Source of the DNA: a virus
DNA: 24,927 nucleotides
Reading direction: 5' to 3' (one strand)
IMG/VR virus record: IMGVR_UViG_3300026263_000013
Location: 1-24,927 of that record
This document shows positions 7,148-23,663 of the stretch, piece by piece. Under the pieces are notes generated by a model. The model ran no database searches and was not told where the DNA came from. It worked only from the letters and a program-made list of their open reading frames with translations. The translations under genes were made by a program, and so were the position numbers. The number at the start of each line of letters is the position of its first letter. Positions within the stretch are counted from its first letter, which is position 1.

Positions 7148-8368
7148 ATGTTTAATTTTAAAGGTTTCATAACAAAGGAAAAGAACACACATTTAGAACA
7201 TCTAGAAGATGATATAATCAATAGAGGTTCCAGAGGTGGAGATAATGCTGTAAAATTTCTAAAATCAATTAGAAATATGTTAGCAGGGTCCTCTGGTGGT
7301 AAAGTTAACATGTCTGTTAAGTGGGACGGAGCTCCTGCTATTGTATGTGGAATAAATCCAGAAAACGGTAAATTCTTTGTTGGTACTAAATCAGTATTCA
7401 ACGTCAAACCAAAAATCAATTATACACCAGGAGATATTATGAGTAATCATAGTGGACCTGTTGCAGATAAATTACTAGTCTGTTTAAGAGAATTAAAAAA
7501 ATTAAGAATAAGAGGTATCTACCAAGGAGATTTACTCTTTACAAATGATACTAAAATACAAGTCATAGATGGAGAGTCTATGATATCTTTCACACCAAAC
7601 ACAATCACATATGCAACACCAGTAAACTCTACTCTAGGTAAAAAGATTAGAAGAGCAAGAATGGGAATAGTATTTCATACAAGTTATACAGGTAAAGATA
7701 TGAAAAGTTTAGGTGCTGGTTTTGGTACAATATCTGGTAGATCAGGATCATCGGCAGTATTTTTAGCAAGTGCTGGATATACTGATACTTCCGGTTCATC
7801 TACATTTACTAGTGGAGAGTTGGCAAGATTTGATGGTTTAATTAGAATGGCTGAAGGCTCTTTAGGTAAAGCTTCATCTATACTAAATGAAATGTCAAGA
7901 TCAAATGATTCATTGTCAGTAGGTTTTAGATTGAAGGCTTTCTTTAATCATTATATTAGAAACACACAAGGTCATATGGGTAAGGTTAAACAATTACAAG
8001 GTATGTTTAGAGATTACTATGAGAATATTTTAACGGAAGAAATAGCAAATAGAAAAACACCAAAAGGTAAACAAAAGTATATAGACCTATTAAATACTAA
8101 TTTAAAATGGATTGATAGAAATGACAATGCATTATATTTTGCTATAGCTTCTCACGTAAGTTTAGGTAATGCAAAGAACTTTTTAATATCTAAACTATCA
8201 CAAATACAAAGTATAGGTCACTTTATTAGAACATCAAATGGTTACAGAGTAACCAATCCAGAGGGTTATGTTGCAGTAAACAGATCAGCTGGTGCAATAA
8301 AATTAGTAGACAGATTAGAATTTAGTAGATCAAACTTTACTATTGCTAAAGATTGGGTAAAAGGATAA
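7148..8368 (+). CDS. DUF6267-like protein with ligase-like KWDG motif
   Basis: A 406-residue protein. Residues 58-61 are KWDG on a predicted strand, followed by another strand and GKFFVGTKS (74-82). This is the arrangement of motif I (K-x-D-G) in DNA/RNA ligases and capping enzymes, where the lysine takes the nucleotide. A possible motif III is IYQGDLLF (124-131) and a possible motif IV is MGIVFH (172-177). From memory it resembles phage proteins labelled DUF6267. If the motifs are right it would be a nucleotidyl-transferring enzyme, but the substrate is unknown. The N-terminus MFNFKGFITKE is a weak match to the capsid-targeting peptides of its neighbours. The ribosome site before 7148 is poor. 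Confidence 0.55.
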   Translation: MFNFKGFITKEKNTHLEHLEDDIINRGSRGGDNAVKFLKSIRNMLAGSSGGKVNMSVKWDGAPAIVCGINPENGKFFVGTKSVFNVKPKINYTPGDIMSNHSGPVADKLLVCLRELKKLRIRGIYQGDLLFTNDTKIQVIDGESMISFTPNTITYATPVNSTLGKKIRRARMGIVFHTSYTGKDMKSLGAGFGTISGRSGSSAVFLASAGYTDTSGSSTFTSGELARFDGLIRMAEGSLGKASSILNEMSRSNDSLSVGFRLKAFFNHYIRNTQGHMGKVKQLQGMFRDYYENILTEEIANRKTPKGKQKYIDLLNTNLKWIDRNDNALYFAIASHVSLGNAKNFLISKLSQIQSIGHFIRTSNGYRVTNPEGYVAVNRSAGAIKLVDRLEFSRSNFTIAKDWVKG

Positions 8369-8952
8369 TGATAGGATTTAAAGATTACATATTCAAATTT
8401 TTAGAAGAAGCTAGACAACCAAAAATTATTTTAATTGGTGGTCCAGGTAGTGGTAAATCTACATATGCAAAATTTATAACAAAAGAATTTAATATACCAC
8501 ACATATACCCAGGTGAACTATTAAGAAAAGAGAAAGCAAAAGGTGGTGAAATGGCCAAAAGATTATCTAATTTAGGTAAGGGTCACTTTGCTCCAAATGA
8601 TATAGTTTTAAAACTTGTATTTGACGCCGTTGACAAAGCAGATGGTTTTGTATTTGATGGCTTTCCAAGATATATGCAACAAGTTAGAGACATGGAAAAG
8701 AAAGGTATTACTATAGATAATGTGGTATTTTTAGATGTAAGTCAGGAAGAAGTTATCAAAAGACTAACTGCTAGAGGCAGAGTTGATGATAAACCTGATG
8801 TAATTAAAAACAGAATTGCCTTATATAAAAAAGAAACTGGTCCTGTAATAGAATATTATAGAGATAAACCAGGTTTTGTATCTATTAAAGCTGAGGGCGA
8901 TACGCCAGAGAACATAGCTAAAGAGATAATAAATAAGGTAAAAAACAAATAA
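8368..8952 (+). CDS. adk: adenylate kinase with capsid-targeting-like N-terminus
   Basis: A 194-residue P-loop kinase of the adenylate kinase family (ATP + AMP = 2 ADP). The P-loop GGPGSGKST is at residues 24-32, an AMP-site helix follows, DGFPR is at 97-101 and a short-lid region RVDDKPDVIKNR follows. The lid is the short type. I chose ATG 8368, which overlaps the previous stop as TAATG and has AAAGGA just upstream; an in-frame ATG at 8353 would overlap more. With this start, 14 residues precede the enzyme core: MIGFKDYIFKFLEE then A, which fits a T4-type prohead protease site (L-E-E/A). Nucleotide metabolism is the known role; packaging is inferred. Confidence 0.85.
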   Translation: MIGFKDYIFKFLEEARQPKIILIGGPGSGKSTYAKFITKEFNIPHIYPGELLRKEKAKGGEMAKRLSNLGKGHFAPNDIVLKLVFDAVDKADGFVFDGFPRYMQQVRDMEKKGITIDNVVFLDVSQEEVIKRLTARGRVDDKPDVIKNRIALYKKETGPVIEYYRDKPGFVSIKAEGDTPENIAKEIINKVKNK

Positions 8953-9176
8953 TGGAAAAGGAGATAATTTATACTATGAGTGAAGGAGAAACATTAAAAT
9001 TTCCAGTACCGGAAGGTATGGAAGATAACAACATTGATGGTTTAACAACAACTGTTGATGTTTTAAATGCAGTAAAAGATAACATTGGTAAAGATAACGA
9101 CAAGGCAGTTGAATTGATTGACCAATTACTAAACAGCGGAAGTGGTGCATTTGGACCACAAGGCAAGGAAGAATAG
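8952..9176 (+). CDS. small acidic hypothetical, 74 aa
   Basis: A 74-residue acidic protein. The middle (residues about 28-58) is a likely helix with DVLNAVKDNIGKDNDKAVEL, and the end is glycine-rich (SGSGAFGPQGKEE). The start shares a base with the adenylate kinase stop (TAATG). No family is recognised. Small acidic late proteins in T4 include prohead core components, but nothing here proves that. Confidence 0.6.
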   Translation: MEKEIIYTMSEGETLKFPVPEGMEDNNIDGLTTTVDVLNAVKDNIGKDNDKAVELIDQLLNSGSGAFGPQGKEE

Positions 9177-9184
9177 GAGACATA

Positions 9185-9799
9185 ATGTATATAAAAGGTG
9201 GAATGAAAAAACTATCAAAGGCAATAGCAAAATCGGCTAAGACACAAATGGATGCTGAGATTGCTAAAGCAGAAAAAGAGGAAAAAGAAATGATGGCTGA
9301 AATAGATAACCTAGATACAACAAATCCTCCTGTATTAGGTGATGAAGGCGTAGATAATATGTCTGTAAAAGAAAAATTAGGAACATGGACTCATAATTTT
9401 TCACAATTAGAGGATAGAGAAAAGTTTTATTACATGCTTGAACAAGGCAGAGGTATAGTAGAACTTGACGAAAAGAAAAGAGTAAACGGATATAGAGTAT
9501 ACGGCTGTGTTAGCCAAGTATGGGTATTACCGTCATTAAAAGATGAGAAAATGATCTTTGAAATAGACGCTGACTCTCACGAGGCTAGAGGTGTATGTTA
9601 TATTCTTAAATCTATTTTTTCAGGAGGAACACCATCTGAAATTTTAGAAGTAACAGACGATCAAATAGTTGACATAGGTTTCTATCAAATATTAACACCA
9701 AAAAGACGAGACGGTCTTTTCGCAGTAGTTAATGCTATAAGAACTTACGCCAAAGATATGGTTGAAATGTTGGAAGAAGCGGCTAAAGCACAAGAGTAA
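9185..9799 (+). CDS. sufE: SufE-like Fe-S cluster sulfur-transfer protein
   Basis: A 204-residue protein whose residues about 65-200 match SufE. Key features are EDREKFYYMLEQG at the domain start, then RVYGCVSQVWV with the cysteine at position 108 (the sulfur-accepting cysteine of SufE lies in a GCxSxVW motif), a GGTPSEIL block and LTPKRRDGL near the end. SufE takes persulfide sulfur from the cysteine desulfurase SufS and passes it to the SufBCD scaffold. The first 65 residues are a lysine/glutamate-rich helical extension absent from usual SufE (about 140 residues). The start at 9185 has an AGGAG site. No other suf gene is in the window, so it would have to work with host SufS/SufBCD. Confidence 0.87.
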   Translation: MYIKGGMKKLSKAIAKSAKTQMDAEIAKAEKEEKEMMAEIDNLDTTNPPVLGDEGVDNMSVKEKLGTWTHNFSQLEDREKFYYMLEQGRGIVELDEKKRVNGYRVYGCVSQVWVLPSLKDEKMIFEIDADSHEARGVCYILKSIFSGGTPSEILEVTDDQIVDIGFYQILTPKRRDGLFAVVNAIRTYAKDMVEMLEEAAKAQE

Positions 9800-10488
9800 T
9801 GAAGAACTTAAAAGAAGTACAAGCATTTTTAAATGAGGGTGTCTATGATAAAGGCATTTTCAAAGCTTTCTTCTTGGCAGGTGGTCCTGGTTCAGGTAAA
9901 TCATTTGTCACTCAAGCCGCTTTTGCTGGCGTAGGATTAAAAATAGTAAACTCTGATACAATCTTTGAAAGAGGATTATTAAAAGCAAACCTATCTTTAA
10001 AAATGCCAGACGAAGAAGAATATTTTAGAAACGCAGTACGAGACAGAGCAAAACTTACAGCAGGTTCTCAATTAGATACTTATGTTAAAGGAAGATTAGG
10101 TCTTGTTATTGACGCAACTGGTCGTGATAAATCTATAATCAGCAGACAACATTCTATGTTGAAAGCATTAGGTTATGATTGTTATATGATTTTTGTAAAC
10201 ACAAGTTTAGATGTGGCTATAGAAAGAAACAAAACAAGAACAAGATCAATACCTGAATATATTGTAAAGAATAGTTGGAACAAAGTACAGTCTAATATGG
10301 GTGCCTTTCAAGCCGTATTCGGACCACAAAACTTATTAATTATTGATAATAATAGAACAGAAAAAGAATTGGTAACCAATACTATTCAGACTGCTTCAAA
10401 ATATATTAGAAGACAACTTAATAGAAATCCAAATAACTATCTAGCTAAACAATGGATAGCAAAAGAATTGCAGGCAAAGAAAAGATGA
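9799..10488 (+). CDS. P-loop kinase (zeta/PNK-like) with capsid-targeting-like N-terminus
   Basis: A 229-residue protein with P-loop GGPGSGKS at residues 28-35, then KIVNSD (a kinase acceptor-site strand ending in D), a later strand LVIDATGRD that fits Walker B, and RNKTRTRSIP with several arginines as a lid. This is the layout of small P-loop kinases such as zeta-toxin-like and polynucleotide kinases; the acceptor substrate is unknown. The first 13 residues, MKNLKEVQAFLNE, followed by G, fit a capsid-targeting peptide ending in a prohead-protease site (L-N-E/G). The start shares a base with the sufE stop. It is not necessarily a toxin: no antitoxin partner is seen. Confidence 0.75.
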   Translation: MKNLKEVQAFLNEGVYDKGIFKAFFLAGGPGSGKSFVTQAAFAGVGLKIVNSDTIFERGLLKANLSLKMPDEEEYFRNAVRDRAKLTAGSQLDTYVKGRLGLVIDATGRDKSIISRQHSMLKALGYDCYMIFVNTSLDVAIERNKTRTRSIPEYIVKNSWNKVQSNMGAFQAVFGPQNLLIIDNNRTEKELVTNTIQTASKYIRRQLNRNPNNYLAKQWIAKELQAKKR

Positions 10489-12809
10489 TTAAAAATTTTA
10501 AAGAATTTGTCATAAAAGAAAGTATCATAGATATACCACGTAGAACATATGCGCCTGGTGTATTTGATAAGGCTGATACTAAAGACCCTAAAATTAAACC
10601 TAGTGTTAAAAAACAAATACAAGATCAGATTAAAGAATTTGAAAAAGAATATCCTGTTATTAAGATAGCATTAATAGGATCAATACTAACAAAGAGATAT
10701 AGAAATGACGCTGACCTTGACATCAATGTATTGTTTGATGTACCAAAAGAAAAACAAGAAGATGAAAGACTAGCACTATCTAAAAAGTATTTGTCAGCGA
10801 GTAATCCTGATAACATACAAGGCGAATTAATACCAGGTACTAAACACCCAATCAACTACTATTTTATAACAGATCAAAAAACATATGACGATCAAAATAA
10901 AAAAGCAGACGCAGTGTTTGATATAGAGAACGATAAGTTTATTAAAAGACCAGAAGATTTTACTTTTGATACAAACTTATACGTAAAAGAATTTGAAAGA
11001 AAAGTACAAGAATTAGATGTAGTTAAAGGCGAATTAAAAAGAGACATAATAGATTACCATGAATTAGTTGAATTACAACCAGATGATATTTTAAATCTAC
11101 AAGAAAAAATTAATGAGAAGTTGGAAGAAATAGAAGACAGTATTAAACAGATAGTAAAAGTAGGTGACGGAGTTGACGCAGATAGAAGAGCTGCATTTGC
11201 TGGTGATATGAATCCAGATGAGATAAGAAAATACGGTATTAAAAATAGATTACCTAAAAATGTTATCTATAAGATGTTAGAAAAATACCACTACTTAAAA
11301 TTCTACAAAAAATGTAAAGAAGTTTTAGAAGACGGTAAAGTTACCGATGATGAAATTAAATCTTTAACTAAAGAACAAATAGATGAAATGAATTTAGAAT
11401 CTATTGCTAGTTCCTGGAATGATTTAATTAGAAGAACAATCAAAGCACCTCAAATGAAAGCAGGTGTACAACTATATTTAAAATATTTAAGACAAGGTAT
11501 GAAAGACGCCAAGAATAAGGCAGCTCAACATGCTGGTATAGATTACAATGAATTTGGTAAAGCAGTAAGAGACGCTGGCTTACCTGAAGAAGTGACGGAA
11601 GAATTAAGAAGACCAAGAAAATCAATTGCGTTTACTTTTGGTAGATTTAATCCACCAACTATAGGCCATGAAAAACTTATTAGAAAAGTTAAATCAGTAA
11701 GAGCAAATGCTCATAAAATTTATTTAAGTAGAAGTGAAGACAGTAAGAAAAATCCATTATCGCCTAGTAAGAAACTAGCATATATGAAAAAGATGTTTCC
11801 TTCTCACGCAAAAGATATAGAGATTAATAGAACAAACATGATACTAGATATTGCTACTAGTTTATACAACAAAGGATATACAGAGGTCTTTATGGTTGTA
11901 GGTAGTGATAGAGTAAGAGAGTTTGATCAAATACTAAACAAATATAATGATGTTAAATCAAGACATGGTTATTATAACTTTGATAATATCAATGTGTTAT
12001 CAGCAGGCGAAAGGGATCCAGACGCAGAGGGAGCTTCAGGTATGAGTGCAAGTAAGATGAGAGCTGCAGCTGCCAAAGATGATATAGGTTCTTTCAAAAG
12101 AGGGTTACCTAGTGGTGTAAACGCTGCTGACCTAATGAAAGATGTTAGAAAAGGTATGAGACTAGCCGCTTCAGTTAATCATCATTTAGGTTATGGTAAT
12201 AAACCAATGTTAAGTATGGAAGAATATGGACAACAACAGATTAGAGACCTTTATTTAAGAGATATGATATTCAATATCGGAGAAAAGGTAGATTACACTA
12301 AACAAGATATACAAGGTACAGTTAAAAGAAAAGGTACAAATTATATTGTACTAGAAGATAATAGAAACAATTTACACAAAGCATGGATATGGGATTGTGT
12401 ACCAATCGCCAGTGATAAAGAGGTTGCAGTTAGAGAACATAATTTAAATGTAGACTATGGCTTTGAGGGTGTATCTGAAAAGAAATACAAACAAAAATTT
12501 GAAGAATTTAAGAAAGAAATTACGATGAAATTAGAGAAAGAATCACATGAAATAGGCGCCGATTATGCCAATCATACTAAAGAAGTGACACCTGGTGAGA
12601 CGCCAGAAGCTAAACCAGTTGACGCTAAAGAGAGAGGTTGGCCTACACAAGGGTACAAAGAGATAAAAACAGACAAAATAAATGAAAAAGATATACAAAT
12701 ATTTGCTTCTTCAAGTGACACAATAGATAAATATAAACATAGATTTAAGGAAGAGTGGAAATCCAAGTTGGATGAAGCTGTTCAGAAAATGCTTAAAGAT
12801 TTAAAATAA
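10485..12809 (+). CDS. fusion of Pol-beta-type and HIGH-type nucleotidyltransferases
   Basis: A 774-residue protein. Start chosen at ATG 10485, which overlaps the previous stop (ATGA); an in-frame ATG exists at 10452. Residues 1-12 (MIKNFKEFVIKE, then S) fit a capsid-targeting peptide and protease site. Residues 65-79 (GS at 65-66, D77-L-D79) are the minimal Pol-beta nucleotidyltransferase motif. Residues 385-395 (FGRFNPPTIGH) are the signature of HIGH-type adenylyl/cytidylyltransferases such as NMN adenylyltransferase. Residues about 580-645 (GEKVDYTKQDIQG, then KAWIWDCVP) look like a small SH3/KOW-like barrel common in marine phages. The last part is charged. Substrates are unknown. Confidence 0.75.
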   Translation: MIKNFKEFVIKESIIDIPRRTYAPGVFDKADTKDPKIKPSVKKQIQDQIKEFEKEYPVIKIALIGSILTKRYRNDADLDINVLFDVPKEKQEDERLALSKKYLSASNPDNIQGELIPGTKHPINYYFITDQKTYDDQNKKADAVFDIENDKFIKRPEDFTFDTNLYVKEFERKVQELDVVKGELKRDIIDYHELVELQPDDILNLQEKINEKLEEIEDSIKQIVKVGDGVDADRRAAFAGDMNPDEIRKYGIKNRLPKNVIYKMLEKYHYLKFYKKCKEVLEDGKVTDDEIKSLTKEQIDEMNLESIASSWNDLIRRTIKAPQMKAGVQLYLKYLRQGMKDAKNKAAQHAGIDYNEFGKAVRDAGLPEEVTEELRRPRKSIAFTFGRFNPPTIGHEKLIRKVKSVRANAHKIYLSRSEDSKKNPLSPSKKLAYMKKMFPSHAKDIEINRTNMILDIATSLYNKGYTEVFMVVGSDRVREFDQILNKYNDVKSRHGYYNFDNINVLSAGERDPDAEGASGMSASKMRAAAAKDDIGSFKRGLPSGVNAADLMKDVRKGMRLAASVNHHLGYGNKPMLSMEEYGQQQIRDLYLRDMIFNIGEKVDYTKQDIQGTVKRKGTNYIVLEDNRNNLHKAWIWDCVPIASDKEVAVREHNLNVDYGFEGVSEKKYKQKFEEFKKEITMKLEKESHEIGADYANHTKEVTPGETPEAKPVDAKERGWPTQGYKEIKTDKINEKDIQIFASSSDTIDKYKHRFKEEWKSKLDEAVQKMLKDLK

Positions 12810-12813
12810 AAAG

Positions 12814-14421
12814 ATGAAAACATTTAGTACATATAGACAAACAATGGCTGAGGCCTACAAAGAGGTAAACATATTAGAGAACGATCTAATGGGTACTCTT
12901 ACTGATAAGCAGATTGCAAATTTAAAAGCGCAATGGGCTAATAAGTCTATGAGAGATGTAACTCCAGGAGTTAAAGCAACTCTTAAAAAAATGGATATGC
13001 CTACTAAAGTTTCAATTGCACAAGCTAAAGTTAATATACTTAAAGACATAGTATTCAAAGAAGACGCTGAACTAGATGAGGGTAAAGTTAAATCTTTCCT
13101 TATGGACGTAGAAGATGACGCTACTAAAATGGACTTAAATAAGTTTATTAGAAAGCATTATGGCTCTATGGGTTTAACTGCTGATGAATTAAAGAAAATG
13201 TTTTACAGAGTTAACAATGAGTCAGTTAATGAGGCAATAGATGACCAAGCAGATATAGAAGAAGGTAGAATGAAAGATATCTTTACAGCAAATCAAGAAG
13301 GCGAAAGCATTGAAAAGATTGCTAAGAAATTAAAACTTTCAATAGCAACTGTTAAAGATGTATTAGGCGAAGAATTACTTGATGAAGTAGCAGATTCAAT
13401 AACACCAATGATGTTAAAGGTTCTTAAAAAAGAATACGAACCATTTAGAAATAAAAAGATTTCAGCTGCTAGAGCAAAACAGTTAATGAATATATTAGAT
13501 AAATTTAATGATAAAAATTTAGAAATTCTAAAAAAACATAACATACCTTTTGTTTCAAGTGGTGCAATGTCAAAACTTATGGTTAGAAAAATGAAATGGA
13601 AAACAACAACTATAAATCCATTTAAAGAAGAATCACAACAAAATACATTTAAAGAAATGGTAGAAGGCTGGGGTGCAAGAAAAGCTTCAGGCGGATATCA
13701 TGGAGATAAAAAATTCAAGAAATTAAAAAGCGAAGTTGAACCTAAAGGCGACAAAGAAATAGAAGAAGGTATGCCAGGTGGTGCTAACTCATCTAGTAAA
13801 AAAGGTAGTGTTTGGAGAAAAGCAATGAAGGCTGCTATGAAAAGAAACTACATGAGAAAAGCTGAGCATGAGCCTAAAGGAGATGAACTAAAAGAAAAAT
13901 TTACAGTACAGATTACTAAAAAAGATGGTGGTCAAATAGTACATGGGTCATACAAAACTAAACCAGAGGCTGACAAATTTATTAGATGGTACAAAACTGG
14001 TCCAATGAAAGATGTTAAATCAGTTGAAGTAATTAAAGAAATGGCTAAAGATGACGCACACGCAATTGGTATGGCGGCTGCTAAGAAACATACAGGTGAC
14101 ACAGAGGCACCTTTAGAAAAATCTACAATTAAAAAAGGCCATGAAATTGCAGATAAGATTTTAAATAAAGAAGCAGTAGGTCATTATCAAAAACTTATGT
14201 TAACTTATGGTAAACCAGGTGGTGACGCTAAGGTTTATTATACAGACTATATGCAAGACCTCCAAAACAGAGCTCAAGAGTATAGAAAAAAAGGTTTCAT
14301 AATAGGTAAAATGGGTAGAAGTGTACCAATGAATCAATTGCCTAAAAAAATGCCAATGAAAGGTAAAGAAATTAAAACTGAAAGATTGTGGTTAAAACAC
14401 AAAAGAGGAGATAAAAAGTAA
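12814..14421 (+). CDS. charged late protein with several prohead-protease-like sites
   Basis: A 535-residue lysine/glutamate-rich protein of no recognised family. The N-terminus MKTFSTYRQTMAE, then A, resembles the T4 internal-protein targeting peptide (MKTYQEFIAE from memory). More sites of the form L/I/M-x-E before G follow: after residue 89 (LDE/G), 150 (IEE/G), 284 (MVE/G) and 318 (IEE/G). Residues about 153-190 contain a helix-turn-helix-like stretch (IAKKLKLSIATVKDVLG). EPKGD occurs twice, at 309-313 and 353-357. A small alpha/beta segment (FTVQITKKDGG) begins near residue 363. These features suit a prohead core or internal protein cut into pieces during head maturation; that role is inferred. 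Confidence 0.6.
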   Translation: MKTFSTYRQTMAEAYKEVNILENDLMGTLTDKQIANLKAQWANKSMRDVTPGVKATLKKMDMPTKVSIAQAKVNILKDIVFKEDAELDEGKVKSFLMDVEDDATKMDLNKFIRKHYGSMGLTADELKKMFYRVNNESVNEAIDDQADIEEGRMKDIFTANQEGESIEKIAKKLKLSIATVKDVLGEELLDEVADSITPMMLKVLKKEYEPFRNKKISAARAKQLMNILDKFNDKNLEILKKHNIPFVSSGAMSKLMVRKMKWKTTTINPFKEESQQNTFKEMVEGWGARKASGGYHGDKKFKKLKSEVEPKGDKEIEEGMPGGANSSSKKGSVWRKAMKAAMKRNYMRKAEHEPKGDELKEKFTVQITKKDGGQIVHGSYKTKPEADKFIRWYKTGPMKDVKSVEVIKEMAKDDAHAIGMAAAKKHTGDTEAPLEKSTIKKGHEIADKILNKEAVGHYQKLMLTYGKPGGDAKVYYTDYMQDLQNRAQEYRKKGFIIGKMGRSVPMNQLPKKMPMKGKEIKTERLWLKHKRGDKK

Positions 14422-15116
14422 TGGGATATTTAAAGAATAAACCAAATAGTTTAGAGGATATGGCAAAACAAATGAATATCCACACAAACGAATCTGGTTA
14501 TAAAGATATGTTCAAGAAAGAATTGGACAAAACTGGTAAAGCTGGAGTTGGTGGTATGACACCTAAAGAAAAGACAGCTTTCTTTAATAAGATTGACAGT
14601 AAACATACTGCTAAAAACGAAACAGTTAAAGAAGAAACTAATTGGTCAGAGGCGGCTCAAGAACAAGAGAAAAGACAAGAAGACGCTAAGTATTTTAAAA
14701 CTGAAGACAGTAAAAAAATACCACCAATATCAAAAGATAATAAACCTGGTGTTAAGATCGCTAAGATTAGAGCAATGAAAGATGGTGAAGAAGGATCAGA
14801 TGATGAAGTACAAAAGTTAAAAGGTCAGGTTGATTTATTAAAACAAAAATTAGAAAACGAGAAACATAAGGCTGTTAAACCAATGCCTAATAAAGATACA
14901 GGAGAGGTTCCTTTATCTGTTGGTATTGCTTACAAACATTTAAGAGACAAAATGAAAACTGAAGCTAAAGTTAAATCAGAGTCAGAACCAGAAGCTGATA
15001 AGCCTTTAGACACAGCAGCGAGAGATAAGAAAATGATGGAGCCAAAAGGTAAAACTATGACTGGCGAACCAAAAACTCCTGTTGAAATGAATCCAAGAAT
15101 CAATCACTCATTTTAG
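14421..15116 (+). CDS. charged, largely disordered hypothetical, 231 aa
   Basis: A very hydrophilic protein, rich in lysine, glutamate and proline, with little hydrophobic core. The N-terminal part has GVGGMTPKEKTAFFNKID, residues about 130-150 form a likely coiled coil (DEVQKLKGQVDLLKQKLENE), and the end is low complexity. The start shares a base with the previous stop (TAATG). It probably acts with the preceding charged protein, for instance as a core or scaffold partner, but there is no direct evidence. Confidence 0.6.
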   Translation: MGYLKNKPNSLEDMAKQMNIHTNESGYKDMFKKELDKTGKAGVGGMTPKEKTAFFNKIDSKHTAKNETVKEETNWSEAAQEQEKRQEDAKYFKTEDSKKIPPISKDNKPGVKIAKIRAMKDGEEGSDDEVQKLKGQVDLLKQKLENEKHKAVKPMPNKDTGEVPLSVGIAYKHLRDKMKTEAKVKSESEPEADKPLDTAARDKKMMEPKGKTMTGEPKTPVEMNPRINHSF

Positions 15117-15133
15117 AAAAGGGTAGACTTGTT

Positions 15134-15616
15134 ATGGACAAACTGCCTAGAATATATTGTGACATGGATGGTGTCCTTGCCGACTTTATGGTGGCTGCTA
15201 AAAAGGCAACAGGTCAAACATTTAATCAATCAAATTCAGACGAACATTGGGAAGTAATTAAGAAAACTCCTAAATTTTGGTCAGATATGCCGTGGATGCC
15301 AGGTGGTAGACAGTTATGGAGATTTATATCAAGATATCAACCACATATTCTATCGGCTTATACACCAAACGATCCAAATTGTAAACCAGGTAAGATAAAA
15401 TGGTTAAAGAAGAACGTTAACCTATCTAATATGAATAGAATTAATCTGGTTAGACGAGTACAGAAACAGAATTACACAAAAACACTAGGTAAACCTACTG
15501 TTTTAATAGACGATTTCAAAAGAAATGTAGACCAATTCACACAAAAAGGTGGTATAGGAATCTACCATACCTCAACAACCAACACAATTAAACAACTAAA
15601 ATCACTAGGTTTCTAA
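15134..15616 (+). CDS. HAD-superfamily phosphatase, 5'(3')-nucleotidase-like
   Basis: A 160-residue protein. Residues 10-14 are DMDGV, the HAD nucleophile motif (DxDG), and residues 126-127 (DD in VLIDDFKRN) fit the distal acidic motif that holds magnesium. The region HILSAYT fits motif II with a serine. Size and motif spacing resemble 5'-deoxyribonucleotidases, which would remove phosphate from deoxynucleoside monophosphates and balance nucleotide pools. It closes the late operon that also holds adenylate kinase. The start has only a distant purine-rich ribosome site. The substrate is inferred from the family. Confidence 0.75.
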   Translation: MDKLPRIYCDMDGVLADFMVAAKKATGQTFNQSNSDEHWEVIKKTPKFWSDMPWMPGGRQLWRFISRYQPHILSAYTPNDPNCKPGKIKWLKKNVNLSNMNRINLVRRVQKQNYTKTLGKPTVLIDDFKRNVDQFTQKGGIGIYHTSTTNTIKQLKSLGF

Positions 15617-15625
15617 TATTAAACT

Positions 15626-15649
15626 GTTATAAATAGTGTTAGTTATAAC
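15626..15649 (+). repeat. inverted repeat over the third late promoter
   Basis: GTTATAA (15626-15632) pairs with TTATAAC (15643-15649) around a 10-base loop. The 5' arm overlaps the TATAAATA box. A similar arrangement is present at 7066-7099. It could be a transcript-end hairpin, or chance in AT-rich DNA. Confidence 0.35.
15628..15635 (+). promoter_or_regulatory. T4-type late promoter TATAAATA
   Basis: Perfect late -10 element in the gap after the HAD gene, 47 bases before the next start at 15683, which has a strong AAGGAG site. It would drive the structural-type genes that follow. Confidence 0.8.
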
Positions 15650-15682
15650 AATAAAGTAAATTTAAATTTAAAGGAGAGAATT

Positions 15683-16255
15683 ATGTCTTTATGGGGAAAC
15701 GATATTAAACCCAAAAATTTAACCGACGCTGAGAAGAAGGAAGTATACGCTACTGCTTCTGGCTGGGTTAGAGAAGCGGGTTCAGTTTTATCCGGTAATG
15801 ATAACACTTCAGCAACACCAGAAGTTTTAGTTGCAGTGGGAGCTTTAGCTACTACTATGGGTGCAGGTGATATTACCGAAATAGAATTTATTACGACAGC
15901 ATTTGATAAATCTGCTGGCGGCACACTACAAATGAGAGTAAGATTTAACGAAGACGTTACCGTGACAGGTACACCGACATTATCATTAACAAATGGTAAC
16001 CAAGGTACTGGTTCTGGTAGAGGTCCTCATGTTTTATCTTATGCTTCAGGATCAAACACTAACGAGTTGGTATTCAGTTTAGTTATAGGAGCTAATAATG
16101 CTGCTACTAACGCAAACGATGTATTAACAGTTGGTACTAACGCAATGGCACTTAACGGTGGTACAGTAAAAGATAGAGGTACTAATACTAACTCTACAAT
16201 TACTAACTCATCTTCTATAGGTACAGCGGCTGGTTCTTTAACAGTTGTAGCTTAA
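15683..16255 (+). CDS. virion protein with Ig-like/SwmB-type beta domain
   Basis: A 190-residue protein. The N-terminal about 65 residues (MSLWGNDIKPKNLTDAEKKE onward) resemble the start of virion proteins in marine T4-like phages. The rest is glycine/threonine/asparagine-rich with repeated beta-strand pattern: VRFNEDVTVTGTPTLSLTNG, then ELVFSLVIGANN, then AMALNGGTVKDRGTN. This fits the Ig-like SwmB-type domain found in surface proteins. The next gene is a paralog of this domain. A late promoter precedes it. A decoration or fibre role on the virion surface is likely but inferred. Confidence 0.7.
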   Translation: MSLWGNDIKPKNLTDAEKKEVYATASGWVREAGSVLSGNDNTSATPEVLVAVGALATTMGAGDITEIEFITTAFDKSAGGTLQMRVRFNEDVTVTGTPTLSLTNGNQGTGSGRGPHVLSYASGSNTNELVFSLVIGANNAATNANDVLTVGTNAMALNGGTVKDRGTNTNSTITNSSSIGTAAGSLTVVA

Positions 16256-16313
16256 TAAACAATTTTGAATAAGCTTATATTATAATACTAGTAAAATAAT
16301 AAGGAGAAATAAC

Positions 16314-16700
16314 ATGGCAACAGTAAACACAATAACTATTGACAGTGATGGAGATTTCAACAGAGCTGCTGGCGGTACTATAACTGCTTCAGTGGTAATG
16401 AGTGAAGACGTAAAAGTATCAGGTACACCTGTACTTAATCTAACTAATGACAATGCTGGTCCAGGCGATGGCAGAGTACAGTGGTTAGAAATGTCAGGTC
16501 ATTCTGGCGACACTATGACTTTTTCATACACTCTAGGTGCAGATGATAAAAAATCTGGCCAAGATGACGATTCAATATCAATAGGTGCTAATGCGTTAGC
16601 ATTAAACGGTGGAACGATTAAAAACGAAAACACTGGTGATGACGCTACTATAACTCACCCAGCAATGGCTGGTACAGTTAAAGTATATACACCTGCTTAA
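16314..16700 (+). CDS. Ig-like/SwmB-type beta protein, paralog of preceding gene
   Basis: A 128-residue protein that is almost entirely one beta domain. It shares with the preceding protein the pattern GGT-I, then EDVKVSGTPVLNLTN, then MTFSYTLGADD, then ALALNGGTIKNENTG and ATITH. It lacks the N-terminal virion-specific part of its neighbour, so it may be an added surface subunit. It has its own strong ribosome site (AAGGAG). A tandem duplication of the domain followed by loss or gain of the N-terminal module explains the pair. Decoration (Hoc-like in role, not in sequence) is a guess. Confidence 0.68.
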   Translation: MATVNTITIDSDGDFNRAAGGTITASVVMSEDVKVSGTPVLNLTNDNAGPGDGRVQWLEMSGHSGDTMTFSYTLGADDKKSGQDDDSISIGANALALNGGTIKNENTGDDATITHPAMAGTVKVYTPA

Positions 16701-16716
16701 TATTATAACAATATTT

Positions 16717-16742
16717 TATAGGGGTCCTAAAAAACCCCTATA
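16717..16742 (+). terminator. strong GC-core hairpin after the Ig-like genes
   Basis: TATAGGGGT (16717-16725) pairs with ACCCCTATA (16734-16742), a perfect 9-bp stem with an 8-base loop CCTAAAAA. This is the most GC-rich hairpin seen in an intergenic position. No T-run follows (TAATAATAAC), so it is a non-canonical terminator or a 3'-end stabiliser. Confidence 0.6.
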
Positions 16743-16752
16743 TAATAATAAC

Positions 16753-16797
16753 AATTGATGTAGTCAAATGGCTACAGTAGCATTCCCGAAAGGGTTT
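16753..16797 (+). promoter_or_regulatory. structured 5' leader of the next gene
   Basis: Two small hairpins lie between the terminator-like hairpin and the start at 16809. The first is TGTAGTC-AAAT-GGCTACA, a 7-bp stem (one G-U pair) with a 4-base loop. The second is CCC-GAAA-GGG with a GNRA-type loop, just before the AAGGAG site. The segment GTAG after the first hairpin can also pair with its 3' arm, giving an alternative fold. No known riboswitch class is recognised. Confidence 0.4.
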
Positions 16798-16808
16798 AAG
16801 GAGAAACA

Positions 16809-17270
16809 ATGGCAGACAAAAAAGTAACACAATTAACAGACCTAGGTAACGCCCTAGATACAGCAGATTTATTTCATATAATTGATGACCCTAGTGGTAC
16901 ACCTATTAATAAAAAGATTTCGGCTGAGGATGTATTCAACAATATTCCAAGTTGGATTGCATTAAAACAAACAGCACAAACAATAACAGCAAGTGGTTCA
17001 ACTCAAGCGGCGAACTTAACAACAGCTGTGACTTTGGTTGACGCTACATCGGCAACAGCACCAACAACACTAGCGGCTGCTTCAACAGATGGACAAATTA
17101 AAACAATTTTAAATGCGTCTACTGGTGGAACAAATGCAGTGACAATTACACCATCAAACTTTAAACAAGGTACAACGGTTACACTAAACGCTCCAGGTGA
17201 GTCAGTGACTATGATGTACAAGTCAAGTTTTTGGTACATAATTTCAGGAGAAGGTCACGTAGTAGCTTAA
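16809..17270 (+). CDS. probable virion structural protein, 153 aa
   Basis: A 153-residue protein starting MADKKVTQLTDLGNALDTAD, followed by LFHIIDDPSGTPINKKIS. This start is common in marine phage tail or fibre-related proteins. The rest is alanine/threonine-rich beta-type sequence ending in MMYKSSFWYIISGEGHVVA, which looks like the last strands of a beta domain. It has a structured leader and an AAGGAG ribosome site. A virion role fits its neighbours, but the exact part is unknown. Confidence 0.6.
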   Translation: MADKKVTQLTDLGNALDTADLFHIIDDPSGTPINKKISAEDVFNNIPSWIALKQTAQTITASGSTQAANLTTAVTLVDATSATAPTTLAAASTDGQIKTILNASTGGTNAVTITPSNFKQGTTVTLNAPGESVTMMYKSSFWYIISGEGHVVA

Positions 17271-17293
17271 TATATAATTAATAGGAGAATATT

Positions 17294-17485
17294 ATGGTAA
17301 TTGATGAAAAAATATTACAAGAGGAAAAAGAATTATTAACTAAAGAATTTAATGATTTGGCCTCTAAAATAAAACAAGTTGAATTGAATGTTGGTACTAT
17401 GAAAGCAAATTTAAATGCAATCAATGGTGCTATACAACAAACAGACAAACTTTTGATAAAGGTAAAAACAAATGAAGAAATTTAA
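17294..17485 (+). CDS. small coiled-coil protein, 63 aa
   Basis: A 63-residue protein that is a single long heptad-like helix: EEKELLTKEFNDLASKIK, then VELNVGTMKANLNAINGAI. There is no membrane segment. An AGGAG site precedes the start. Its end overlaps the next small gene. Short coiled coils of this type may serve as trimerising or chaperone-like factors; no family is recognised. Confidence 0.6.
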   Translation: MVIDEKILQEEKELLTKEFNDLASKIKQVELNVGTMKANLNAINGAIQQTDKLLIKVKTNEEI

Positions 17486-17606
17486 ATCGTTTATAAAAGA
17501 AGAAGATTTAAAGGATTTTGAGGAAGATGTTTTAGCAGATAAGAAACCTGCTGAAACACCAACCGAAGATAACGAAAAAAAGGAAACAAAAAATGAAGAC
17601 ATTTAA
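17472..17606 (+). CDS. small acidic protein with capsid-targeting-like N-terminus, 44 aa
   Basis: A short ORF overlapping both neighbours by 14 bases. The product begins MKKFKSFIKE, then is highly acidic (EDLKDFEEDVLADKK, then a proline/glutamate/lysine tail). The first ten residues have the same shape as T4's MKTYQEFIAE (from memory) and as the next gene's MKTFKKYLNE, with an I-K-E protease-like site at residue 10. T4 makes small acidic prohead core proteins (gp67) that are cut into internal peptides; this could be such a protein, by inference only. Confidence 0.5.
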   Translation: MKKFKSFIKEEDLKDFEEDVLADKKPAETPTEDNEKKETKNEDI

Positions 17607-18015
17607 GAAGTACTTAAACGAACATGTGGGTGTCGGTACTCCAGAGGTAAACTCTGTAGAAGATGGTAGTATTGGTGTTCATAATATACACGATCCAGAA
17701 GTATTAAAAAGAGTTAATGCTTTTGTAGGATCAATAGGTGAAAGAGAATACATTAAACCTGGTTTCGCTCTTGACGAATTACGTACTAAGCTATCTCAAA
17801 TAGGATTAGAAGTTAGTCCTTGTACAATGGATGGCGACAGTGGTACAGTCACAGCAGAGGTTAATGCTCACGGAGGAAGATTTGGTAAGGACGTAGATGG
17901 TTCTGATATTAATGATGATGGTATATCTCACAGAAAAGAGGGTGGCCTTAAATTAGAGGTTAAGTACGAAACATTAAAAACAGGAACATCAAAAGTCTAC
18001 GCTAAATTAGTGTAG
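17593..18015 (+). CDS. conserved late protein with capsid-targeting-like N-terminus, 140 aa
   Basis: The protein begins MKTFKKYLNE, a near match to the T4 internal-protein targeting peptide, with L-N-E at residues 8-10. The body has NIHDPEVLKRVNAFVGSIG and YIKPGFALDELRTKLSQIGL, a helical conserved segment, followed by a beta-rich second half with GDSGTVTAEVNAHGG and a D/G-rich loop (KDVDGSDINDDG) that could bind calcium. No signal peptide. It sits in the late structural group. A packaged or prohead-core protein is the best guess. Confidence 0.6.
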   Translation: MKTFKKYLNEHVGVGTPEVNSVEDGSIGVHNIHDPEVLKRVNAFVGSIGEREYIKPGFALDELRTKLSQIGLEVSPCTMDGDSGTVTAEVNAHGGRFGKDVDGSDINDDGISHRKEGGLKLEVKYETLKTGTSKVYAKLV

Positions 18016-22583: not shown

Positions 22584-23663
22584 ATGAAATTGAATTTAAA
22601 AAAGAATGTTCAGAATATAGTTGGTGTTGTAATGTTAGTTGCTGTATTATTAGCAGTAGCATTTACTAGTCACAGTAATAAAGGACAAGAGGTAGAAGTT
22701 AAAAAAGAAATAGGTTTACTTCAAACAGTAAAAGAAAGAGGTTATGTTATATGTGGAGTTAATGCTGGTTTACCAGGTTTCTCTGCTCAAGATGAAGATA
22801 CAGGAGTTTGGAGTGGGTTAGATGTTGATTTCTGTAAAGCAGTATCAGCTGCTATATTTGGAGACGAAACTAAAGTAGAATTTGTTGGACTAAATGCTAG
22901 TCAAAGATTTCCAACATTAGCGTCTGGCAATATAGATTTACTTGCTAGAAATACTACTTGGACAATTAGTCGTGATGTTAACTTGATGTTTGAATTTGCA
23001 GGAGTTAACTACTATGACGGTCAAGGTTTTTTAATACCAACAGAATTAGGCATTAAGAGTGCCAAAAATTTAGACGGTGCGTTTGTTTGTATTACAAAAG
23101 ATACAACGTCTGAATTAAACTTAAACGATTACTTTGCCGAAAACAATATGACATATAAACCAATATATGTTGAGGGTAATAAAATGGCAAAAGCAAAACT
23201 ATTTGGTGGTGAGTGTGATGTATTCACAACAGACGCCTCTGGTTTAGCAAGTGCTAGATCAGGTGCTGAAGACCCTAGTAAATGGATGGTATTACCAGAA
23301 ATTATATCTAAAGAACCATTAGGTCCAGCAGTAAGACAAGGCGACCAAGAGTGGGAAGATGTAGTTAGATGGACACACTTTATAATGGTTAATGCTGAAG
23401 AAGCAGGTATCACTTCCGAAAATGTGGATATGATGTTAACTGCTAAATCAAAAGAGATTAAAAGAATATTGGGCGTAGAAGGATATGTTGGTCCAATGTT
23501 GGGATTAGGTATGAAATTCGGATATAATATAATAAAACTTGTTGGTAACTACGGTGAATCATACGAAAGAAATGTAGGACCAAATACTCCTCTAGCATTA
23601 GAGAGAGGATTAAATAAACTTTGGAAAGACGGTGGCGTTATGTACGTACCACCAATTAGATAG
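22584..23663 (+). CDS. aapJ: AapJ-like general L-amino-acid ABC transporter substrate-binding protein
   Basis: A 359-residue periplasmic binding protein. Residues about 10-28 form a hydrophobic signal or anchor (IVGVVMLVAVLLAVAF). The mature part has the AapJ/YhdW hallmarks: KERGYVICGVNAGLPGFSAQ, then GLDVDFCKAVSAAIFGD, RFPTLASGNIDLLARNTTWT, NYYDGQGFLIP, and TTSELNLNDYF. AapJ captures amino acids and hands them to the AapQMP permease. Length is full for the family and no frameshift is seen. No permease or ATPase gene is in the window, so it would need the host's AapQMP. No lipobox or clear signal-peptidase site is seen, so it may stay membrane-anchored. Confidence 0.9.
   Translation: MKLNLKKNVQNIVGVVMLVAVLLAVAFTSHSNKGQEVEVKKEIGLLQTVKERGYVICGVNAGLPGFSAQDEDTGVWSGLDVDFCKAVSAAIFGDETKVEFVGLNASQRFPTLASGNIDLLARNTTWTISRDVNLMFEFAGVNYYDGQGFLIPTELGIKSAKNLDGAFVCITKDTTSELNLNDYFAENNMTYKPIYVEGNKMAKAKLFGGECDVFTTDASGLASARSGAEDPSKWMVLPEIISKEPLGPAVRQGDQEWEDVVRWTHFIMVNAEEAGITSENVDMMLTAKSKEIKRILGVEGYVGPMLGLGMKFGYNIIKLVGNYGESYERNVGPNTPLALERGLNKLWKDGGVMYVPPIR

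Follow-up and report, generated by a model that had tools for sequence, protein, structure and literature searches.

The DNA analysed here (the window) is a stretch of 24,927 nucleotides, positions 1 to 24,927 of IMG/VR virus record IMGVR_UViG_3300026263_000013, a 24.9-kb record that comes from a T4-like marine phage. Our subject is a set of six of its genes whose products begin with short N-termini resembling the capsid-targeting sequence (CTS) of the T4 internal proteins. A first-pass annotation, made from the sequence alone, had picked out these N-termini and proposed that the enzymes behind them are packaged in the phage head and enter the cell with the DNA.

The gene block

All six N-termini are present at the genes to which they had been assigned, each on the plus strand. 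The adenylate kinase gene (adk, 8368-8952; Pfam ADK, 121.7 bits) begins with MIGFKDYIFKFLEE/A (codons 8368-8409), and a P-loop kinase of the AAA_33 or polynucleotide kinase (PNK)-like type (9799-10488; Pfam AAA_33, 45.5 bits) with MKNLKEVQAFLNE/G (9799-9837). These are followed by a two-domain nucleotidyltransferase (NTase; 10485-12809), which combines a Pol-beta-type domain with an NMNAT-like, HIGH-motif domain (Pfam NTP_transf_2 and CTP_transf_like) behind MIKNFKEFVIKE/S (10485-10520), and by a charged protein of 535 residues (12814-14421) with the tag-like start MKTFSTYRQTMAE/A (12814-12852). Further downstream are an acidic protein of 44 residues (17472-17606; MKKFKSFIKE/E, 17472-17501) and a protein of 140 residues (17593-18015; MKTFKKYLNE/H, 17593-17622). 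The longest open reading frames of adk (TTG 8353) and of the NTase (ATG 10452) begin upstream of the starts used here, ATG 8368 and ATG 10485, which are the ones backed by orthologs. The kinase and the charged protein start at ATG 9799 and ATG 12814. The start codons of adk, the kinase, the NTase and the two small genes overlap the preceding stops as had been described; the gene at 12814 follows a short gap instead.

No match was found when 12 kb of the window was compared with isolate phages at the nucleotide level, and relatives were identified via protein searches. At the protein level the nearest isolates belong to the Kyanoviridae: Pelagibacter phage HTVC008M and Methylophilales phage Melnitz. 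The block lies downstream of UvsX and the gp41 helicase, in the gene order of HTVC008M gp126-gp144 and Melnitz _15-_36, and the equivalent block of cyanophage S-ShM2 lies between gp41 and gp61. Orthologs were taken from IMG/VR.

The N-terminal pattern and its specificity

The T4 template given in the first-pass annotation, MKTYQEFIAE, was confirmed in the T4 record, where it opens both internal proteins (IP) II and III (MKTYQEFIAEA). Published work on the CTS attributes targeting to residues 4 and 7 and processing to residues 8 and 10. Hydrophobic residues at 4 and 7, an aliphatic residue at 8 and Glu at 10 occur exactly in two of the window proteins and as spaced variants in four. The distance from site to start probably varies in T4 as well, where IPI begins MKTFKEFTSTTTPVSTITEA. 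A further T4 protein, the 54-residue product of gene 61.1 (NC_000866, 18966-19130), starts MKTFKEFIKE, a strict head tag, and its gene occupies the interval between 61 and 41, which in the marine phages holds the tagged block.

The pattern first proposed for the six proteins is found in 6 of the 40 genes of the window. Shuffling of residues 2-21 gives an expectation of 0.41, and none of 2,000 shuffles reaches six. These matches are five of the six proteins plus UvsX at 2684, which is probably a chance match; the claim of a single shape thus holds for five, and the charged protein at 12814 needs a looser pattern, which finds nine window genes (0.84 expected). A strict IPIII layout, defined as an aromatic residue or Leu near position 4, an aromatic at +3, then an aliphatic and then xE, finds the 44- and 140-residue proteins only (0.05 expected).

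Over the whole genome of cyanophage S-CREM2 the loose motif is not specific, with 11 matches against 5.2 expected, and we therefore turned to the strict layout and to orthologs. In 172 related loci, 5,816 starts were tested outside the four families with strict tags. The strict pattern fits 18 of them, of which 17 belong to further members of the 44-residue family, leaving one other small protein where 5.0 were expected. No strict tag was found in six neighbouring families (SufE-like, nucleotidase, phrog_407, phrog_18642, phrog_1462 and the family at 14421). That the similarity comes from chance together with shared ancestry of the N-termini, in a genome that is low in GC and lysine-rich, is very improbable and already disfavoured: the loose pattern does fit UvsX and gives the S-CREM2 count just mentioned, but in the window the strict and the loose pattern are both commoner than in shuffled sequences, strict matches in related loci are almost confined to the same families, and the adenylate kinase tags described below retain their form while differing in sequence.

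Adenylate kinase with and without the tag

The identity of the 8368 gene product as an adenylate kinase is secure, its ADK domain scoring 121.7 bits against a Pfam cut-off of 26.8. Adenylate kinases from PDB, NCBIfam models and cellular homologs align from about residue 19 of the query, which corresponds to residue 1-3 of the enzyme and lies after the tag. The 18 residues ahead of the domain are MIGFKDYIFKFLEEARQP in the window, and the same stretch begins MKTFKQYVTE, MDTFKQYLFNFLNEAKQ, MLGFKDYIINHLLEAKQ, MVQTFVNFLKEAK, MKTFRNFYEQQLLEAKQ and MKTFKHFYFEAING in others. Even in enzymes about 54-63% identical to that of the window the tags differ (MDTFKQYLFNFLNE/A, MKTFRNFYEQQLLE/A and MVQTFVNFLKE/A) and still stand ahead of the catalytic domain; sequence and length vary, but each tag closes with a site containing Glu immediately ahead of the domain. 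The alignment of homologs suggested in the first-pass annotation therefore gave the result it anticipated, with the form of the tag retained while its sequence drifts, and with cellular adenylate kinases and curated models beginning after it.

Because an initial count by kinase starts had mixed true starts with nearest start codons, adenylate kinases were counted again by domain. Among distinct separate enzymes 32 of 33 are tagged (29 by regular expression, plus three with MKTFKHFYFE/A that the expression missed; one has no assignable start), whereas a front tag is found in none of the 14 distinct adenylate kinases fused to the kinase, which start MNIILIGG or MNIVLIGG. The tag is thus optional before one catalytic body. 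In the fusions a tag-like LREFREYLNE/G or SFSEMRNFITE/G sits between the domains. An internal TTG start there was rejected as a general rule, as some fusions show TTA or TTC and there is no consistent ribosome site.

These counts also bear on the possibility that the N-termini are amphipathic first helices serving the fold or oligomerisation of each enzyme, unrelated to packaging. It would account for the kinase retaining its segment even when this is internal in a fusion, and AlphaFold places a helix, at low confidence, at kinase residues 3-12. Yet N-termini of this form stand before unrelated folds and before an acidic peptide of 44 residues, adenylate kinase does without the segment in cells and in the 14 fusions, and the segment matches T4 IPII and IPIII and marks S-CREM2 enzymes detected in virions (see below), so that we regard this explanation as unlikely.

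Other tagged families

The tag form stands ahead of quite unrelated proteins: adenylate kinase, the kinase, the NTase, an S-adenosylmethionine (SAM) hydrolase, an APH-like kinase, an ATP-grasp protein and small acidic proteins. In the kinase family of 9799 a [LIV]xE/G[VL]YD junction is retained across the loci listed, and the Melnitz kinase keeps a tag (MKTFAELQE/G) although it has been relocated in the genome. Its top Foldseek match, a moderate one obtained with a predicted model (mean pLDDT 70.7), is the polynucleotide kinase of C. thermocellum, and it scores 35.5 bits against the PNK phrog. Four related proteins encoded side by side in Agrobacterium phage Atu_ph07 start MRWEQLTE, MRWEQLTE, MRWEQLNE and MKWNDLNE, and one of the four is fused to the kinase family of 9799, with EVTE/GVNDKHIF preceding it.

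Among 98 ortholog calls of the NTase, 59 carry a tag of the loose pattern and 38 a strict one; tag length is variable, and most members have an [IL]xE/S or /A junction. The N-terminal domain is Pol-beta-like by Pfam, and the C-terminal domain, which has a Foldseek fold match to NadM/NMNAT/PPAT, may be called NMNAT-like on that match; the protein scores 24.9 bits against the 341-bit cut-off of the curated NadR model, which places it outside the NMN adenylyltransferase family so defined.

Orthologs of the charged protein, including HTVC008M gp132 and Melnitz _20, start M[TS][KR]YR[KE]TMAE/A, and most lack the aromatic residue at position 7. Strict tags are carried by 12 of 22 orthologs in the 44-residue family. 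In 52 orthologs of the 140-residue protein mean entropy is 0.60 bits over columns 1-10, 1.86 over the next 15 and 0.63 over the rest; a variable segment thus separates the conserved MKTFKxxxxE from the conserved body. The nucleotidase, untagged in the window, is extended at its N-terminus in HTVC008M (MKYSAFKAETLNLHLVQE/Q) and in Melnitz (MKSIVEVTSINEE). Melnitz also encodes a RimK-like ATP-grasp protein (L005:82-1131) with the strict tag MTQKFSQFITE/E.

Virion proteomes and the prohead protease

For S-CREM2, for which 52 virion proteins are listed (PMC10665884), the strict pattern occurs in 7 of 219 genes against 0.28 expected. Five of the seven products are in the virion, all of them non-structural or of unknown function (Fisher p = 4e-4): the SAM hydrolase (MKDFDSFLEE), the APH-like kinase (MKRFDAFLTE), a cytidylyltransferase (MKNFSSFLTE), gp13 (MKDLHSFLTE) and gp136 (MQTFSMFFSE). 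The Cas9-like gp12 (L091:7704-10313), also detected in the virion, was not counted as tagged, since its LRFASFMAE/A lies at residues 17-25 with CTG before it and no usual start codon; this segment is possibly an internal tag.

The NTase family (T4-GC190) has been detected in virions of S-SM1 (PMC3037559) and S-SZBM1 (PMC9146016), and an NMNAT-like relative in those of S-SCSM1 (PMC9602691). Where its start was read the family is tagged: MKNFSSFLTE/A in S-CREM2, MRFRQFIIE/A in S-SZBM1, MKKFSTFISE/A in S-ShM2 and MKRYTNFLSE/A in S-CREM1. The earlier statement that no delivery of kinases and nucleotidyltransferases had been described was too strong, as cytidylyltransferase or NMNAT-like proteins and kinases have been reported in cyanophage virions and T4 Alt is tagged and injected; it stands in so far as no targeting sequence had been tied to these enzymes. 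A search of the available literature combining cyanophages with capsid targeting returned a T4 review only, and no mention of a tag was found in the cyanophage virion reports.

Alternatively, the tag could dock the proteins onto some other phage structure in the infected cell (replisome, membrane or scaffold), with co-purification in virions being contamination. The position of the block, flanked by the genes for the gp41 helicase and the gp61 primase, would suit such a role, and carry-over is not excludable according to the authors of the proteomes. However, the layout is that of the experimentally defined T4 head tag, protease site included, and carry-over should favour abundant rather than tagged enzymes, whereas in S-CREM2 it is tagging that predicts virion content; we consider docking improbable, marginally more so than a role in folding.

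The gp21-type protease that the first-pass annotation proposed to look for was seen in relatives: HTVC008M, Melnitz and S-CREM2 each have one annotated, and one occurs in three long contigs carrying the block, while other contigs are without it, as fragments may be.

Neighbouring genes

Between adk and the kinase lies an untagged SufE-like Fe-S metabolism domain (9203-9799; PF02657, E 4.6e-26), and at 22584-23663 a phage-borne homolog of the basic amino-acid ABC transporter substrate-binding protein (TIGR01096, 148.6 bits against a cut-off of 256). Directly upstream of adk, on the plus strand, a DUF6267 protein (7148-8368; Pfam PF19782, 386.6 bits) has an incomplete tag-like start, MFNFKGFITKE; its orthologs mostly retain F4 and F7, but conservation does not extend to the acidic cut site, and cyanophage forms begin directly at NTHLE. 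Its invariant KWDGAPA, QGD, EG[YF]V and KLV motifs resemble those of covalent nucleotidyltransferases. A ligase-like assignment, suggested by eye by the invariant KWDG, EG and K, found no support either in a profile search against solved structures or in an hhalign comparison with T4 RnlB, and we do not make it.

Interpretation and significance

We consider it likely that the N-termini are T4-type capsid-targeting sequences on enzyme cargo, to be cut by a gp21 protease. The first-pass annotation had proposed this reading, and it is now supported by the form of the tag in homologs, by gp21 in relatives and by virion proteomes for the NTase family and other tagged enzymes. Confidence is high for the predicted targeting tags as such, and packaging of the tagged proteins in the head is well supported by published proteomics of related phages. 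A tag of 8-14 residues would bind the prohead core via its hydrophobic residues and bring the protein behind it into the head during assembly, where, judging from the residues at the junction, a gp21-family protease would cut after Glu at [LIVM]-x-E / A, G, S or E. The mature enzyme would then stay among the packaged DNA and, by analogy with T4, may leave with it at infection. The predicted cargo comprises the adenylate kinase, the PNK-like P-loop kinase, the Pol-beta plus NMNAT-like NTase and small or charged internal proteins. Speculatively, it could act at the first moment of infection in nucleotide or NAD+ supply or in the repair of RNA such as tRNA, a role at entry that is plausible because head-packaged NAD+/ADP-ribose (ADPr) enzymes have been proposed for myoviruses (PMC9503650).

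Several observations weigh against the capsid-targeting interpretation. The strict layout is found in just two of the six window tags, and the looser pattern also picks up UvsX, so the pattern alone is not specific. The tag form is retained in most homologs and is absent or degenerate in some, such as the window nucleotidase and the HTVC008M NTase, which starts MKTLKELLRKK, without an xE site; HTVC008M has no strict-pattern match at all. Ortholog counts are not independent, since orthologs are related, and the tag-like segment of fused adenylate kinases is internal with no consistent start codon. The authors of the cyanophage proteomes weighed both packaging and carry-over and could not exclude contamination, and S-SZBM1 proteins 191 and 192, which have strict tags, are missing from its virion list. 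We found neither a virion proteome nor N-terminal sequence data for the lineage of the window, and gp21 is not in the window, a 24.9-kb fragment.

More tentatively, marine T4-like phages may possess a modular cargo system, a possibility that we hold to be somewhat less than even. The tag would come and go irrespective of the catalytic body behind it, changing the set of enzymes carried (adenylate kinase, PNK-like kinase, NMNAT-like NTase, nucleotidase, SAM hydrolase, RimK-like ATP-grasp protein, APH-like kinase and perhaps Cas9); the adenylate kinase-kinase fusions would be head-processed polyproteins in which one internal tag with its cut site acts for both enzymes at once, and the whole would form a nucleotide, NAD+, RNA repair and anti-defence kit at entry.

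If the capsid-targeting interpretation is true, the tags would explain the presence of NTase relatives in purified cyanophage particles. Cyanophage proteomics has repeatedly met NMNAT-like enzymes and kinases in virions and left their packaging open, which an N-terminal targeting tag would settle. Sequence alone would then predict which proteins of very abundant marine phages, infecting SAR11, methylophile and cyanobacterial hosts, enter with the DNA, and the T4 idea of head cargo, built on restriction inhibitors and Alt, would come to include enzymes acting on nucleotides and NAD+.

Comparison with known systems

A system of this kind is known from T4, while its cargo and breadth appear new. 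Like T4 IPI, IPII and IPIII, the marine phage proteins have a short N-terminal tag with hydrophobic residues at 4 and 7, an aliphatic at 8 and Glu at 10 before the predicted cut, relatives encode a gp21-family protease, and small internal proteins are among the predicted cargo. Unlike those of the T4 internal proteins, the tags also head complete metabolic enzymes, several are 12-14 residues long, and the block lies between the helicase and primase genes. Ejection into the host is known for the T4 internal proteins and for Alt, an ADP-ribosyltransferase with a gp21-cleaved N-terminal propeptide that is packaged and injected. Alt, however, modifies host RNA polymerase, whereas the proposed marine cargo consists of nucleotide kinases and nucleotidyltransferases. 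The NMNAT-like or cytidylyltransferase proteins and kinases of cyanophage virions (T4-GC190; S-SM1, S-CREM2, S-SZBM1 and S-SCSM1) include the same NTase family, tagged where checked, whereas the virion lists consulted do not contain the adenylate kinase and the PNK-like kinase proposed as cargo in the pelagiphage-type group. The ejection proteins of the phiKZ-like giant phage SPN3US are likewise head proteins whose propeptides are cut by the prohead protease before ejection, but those propeptides are mostly over 100 residues long, compared with 8-14 here.

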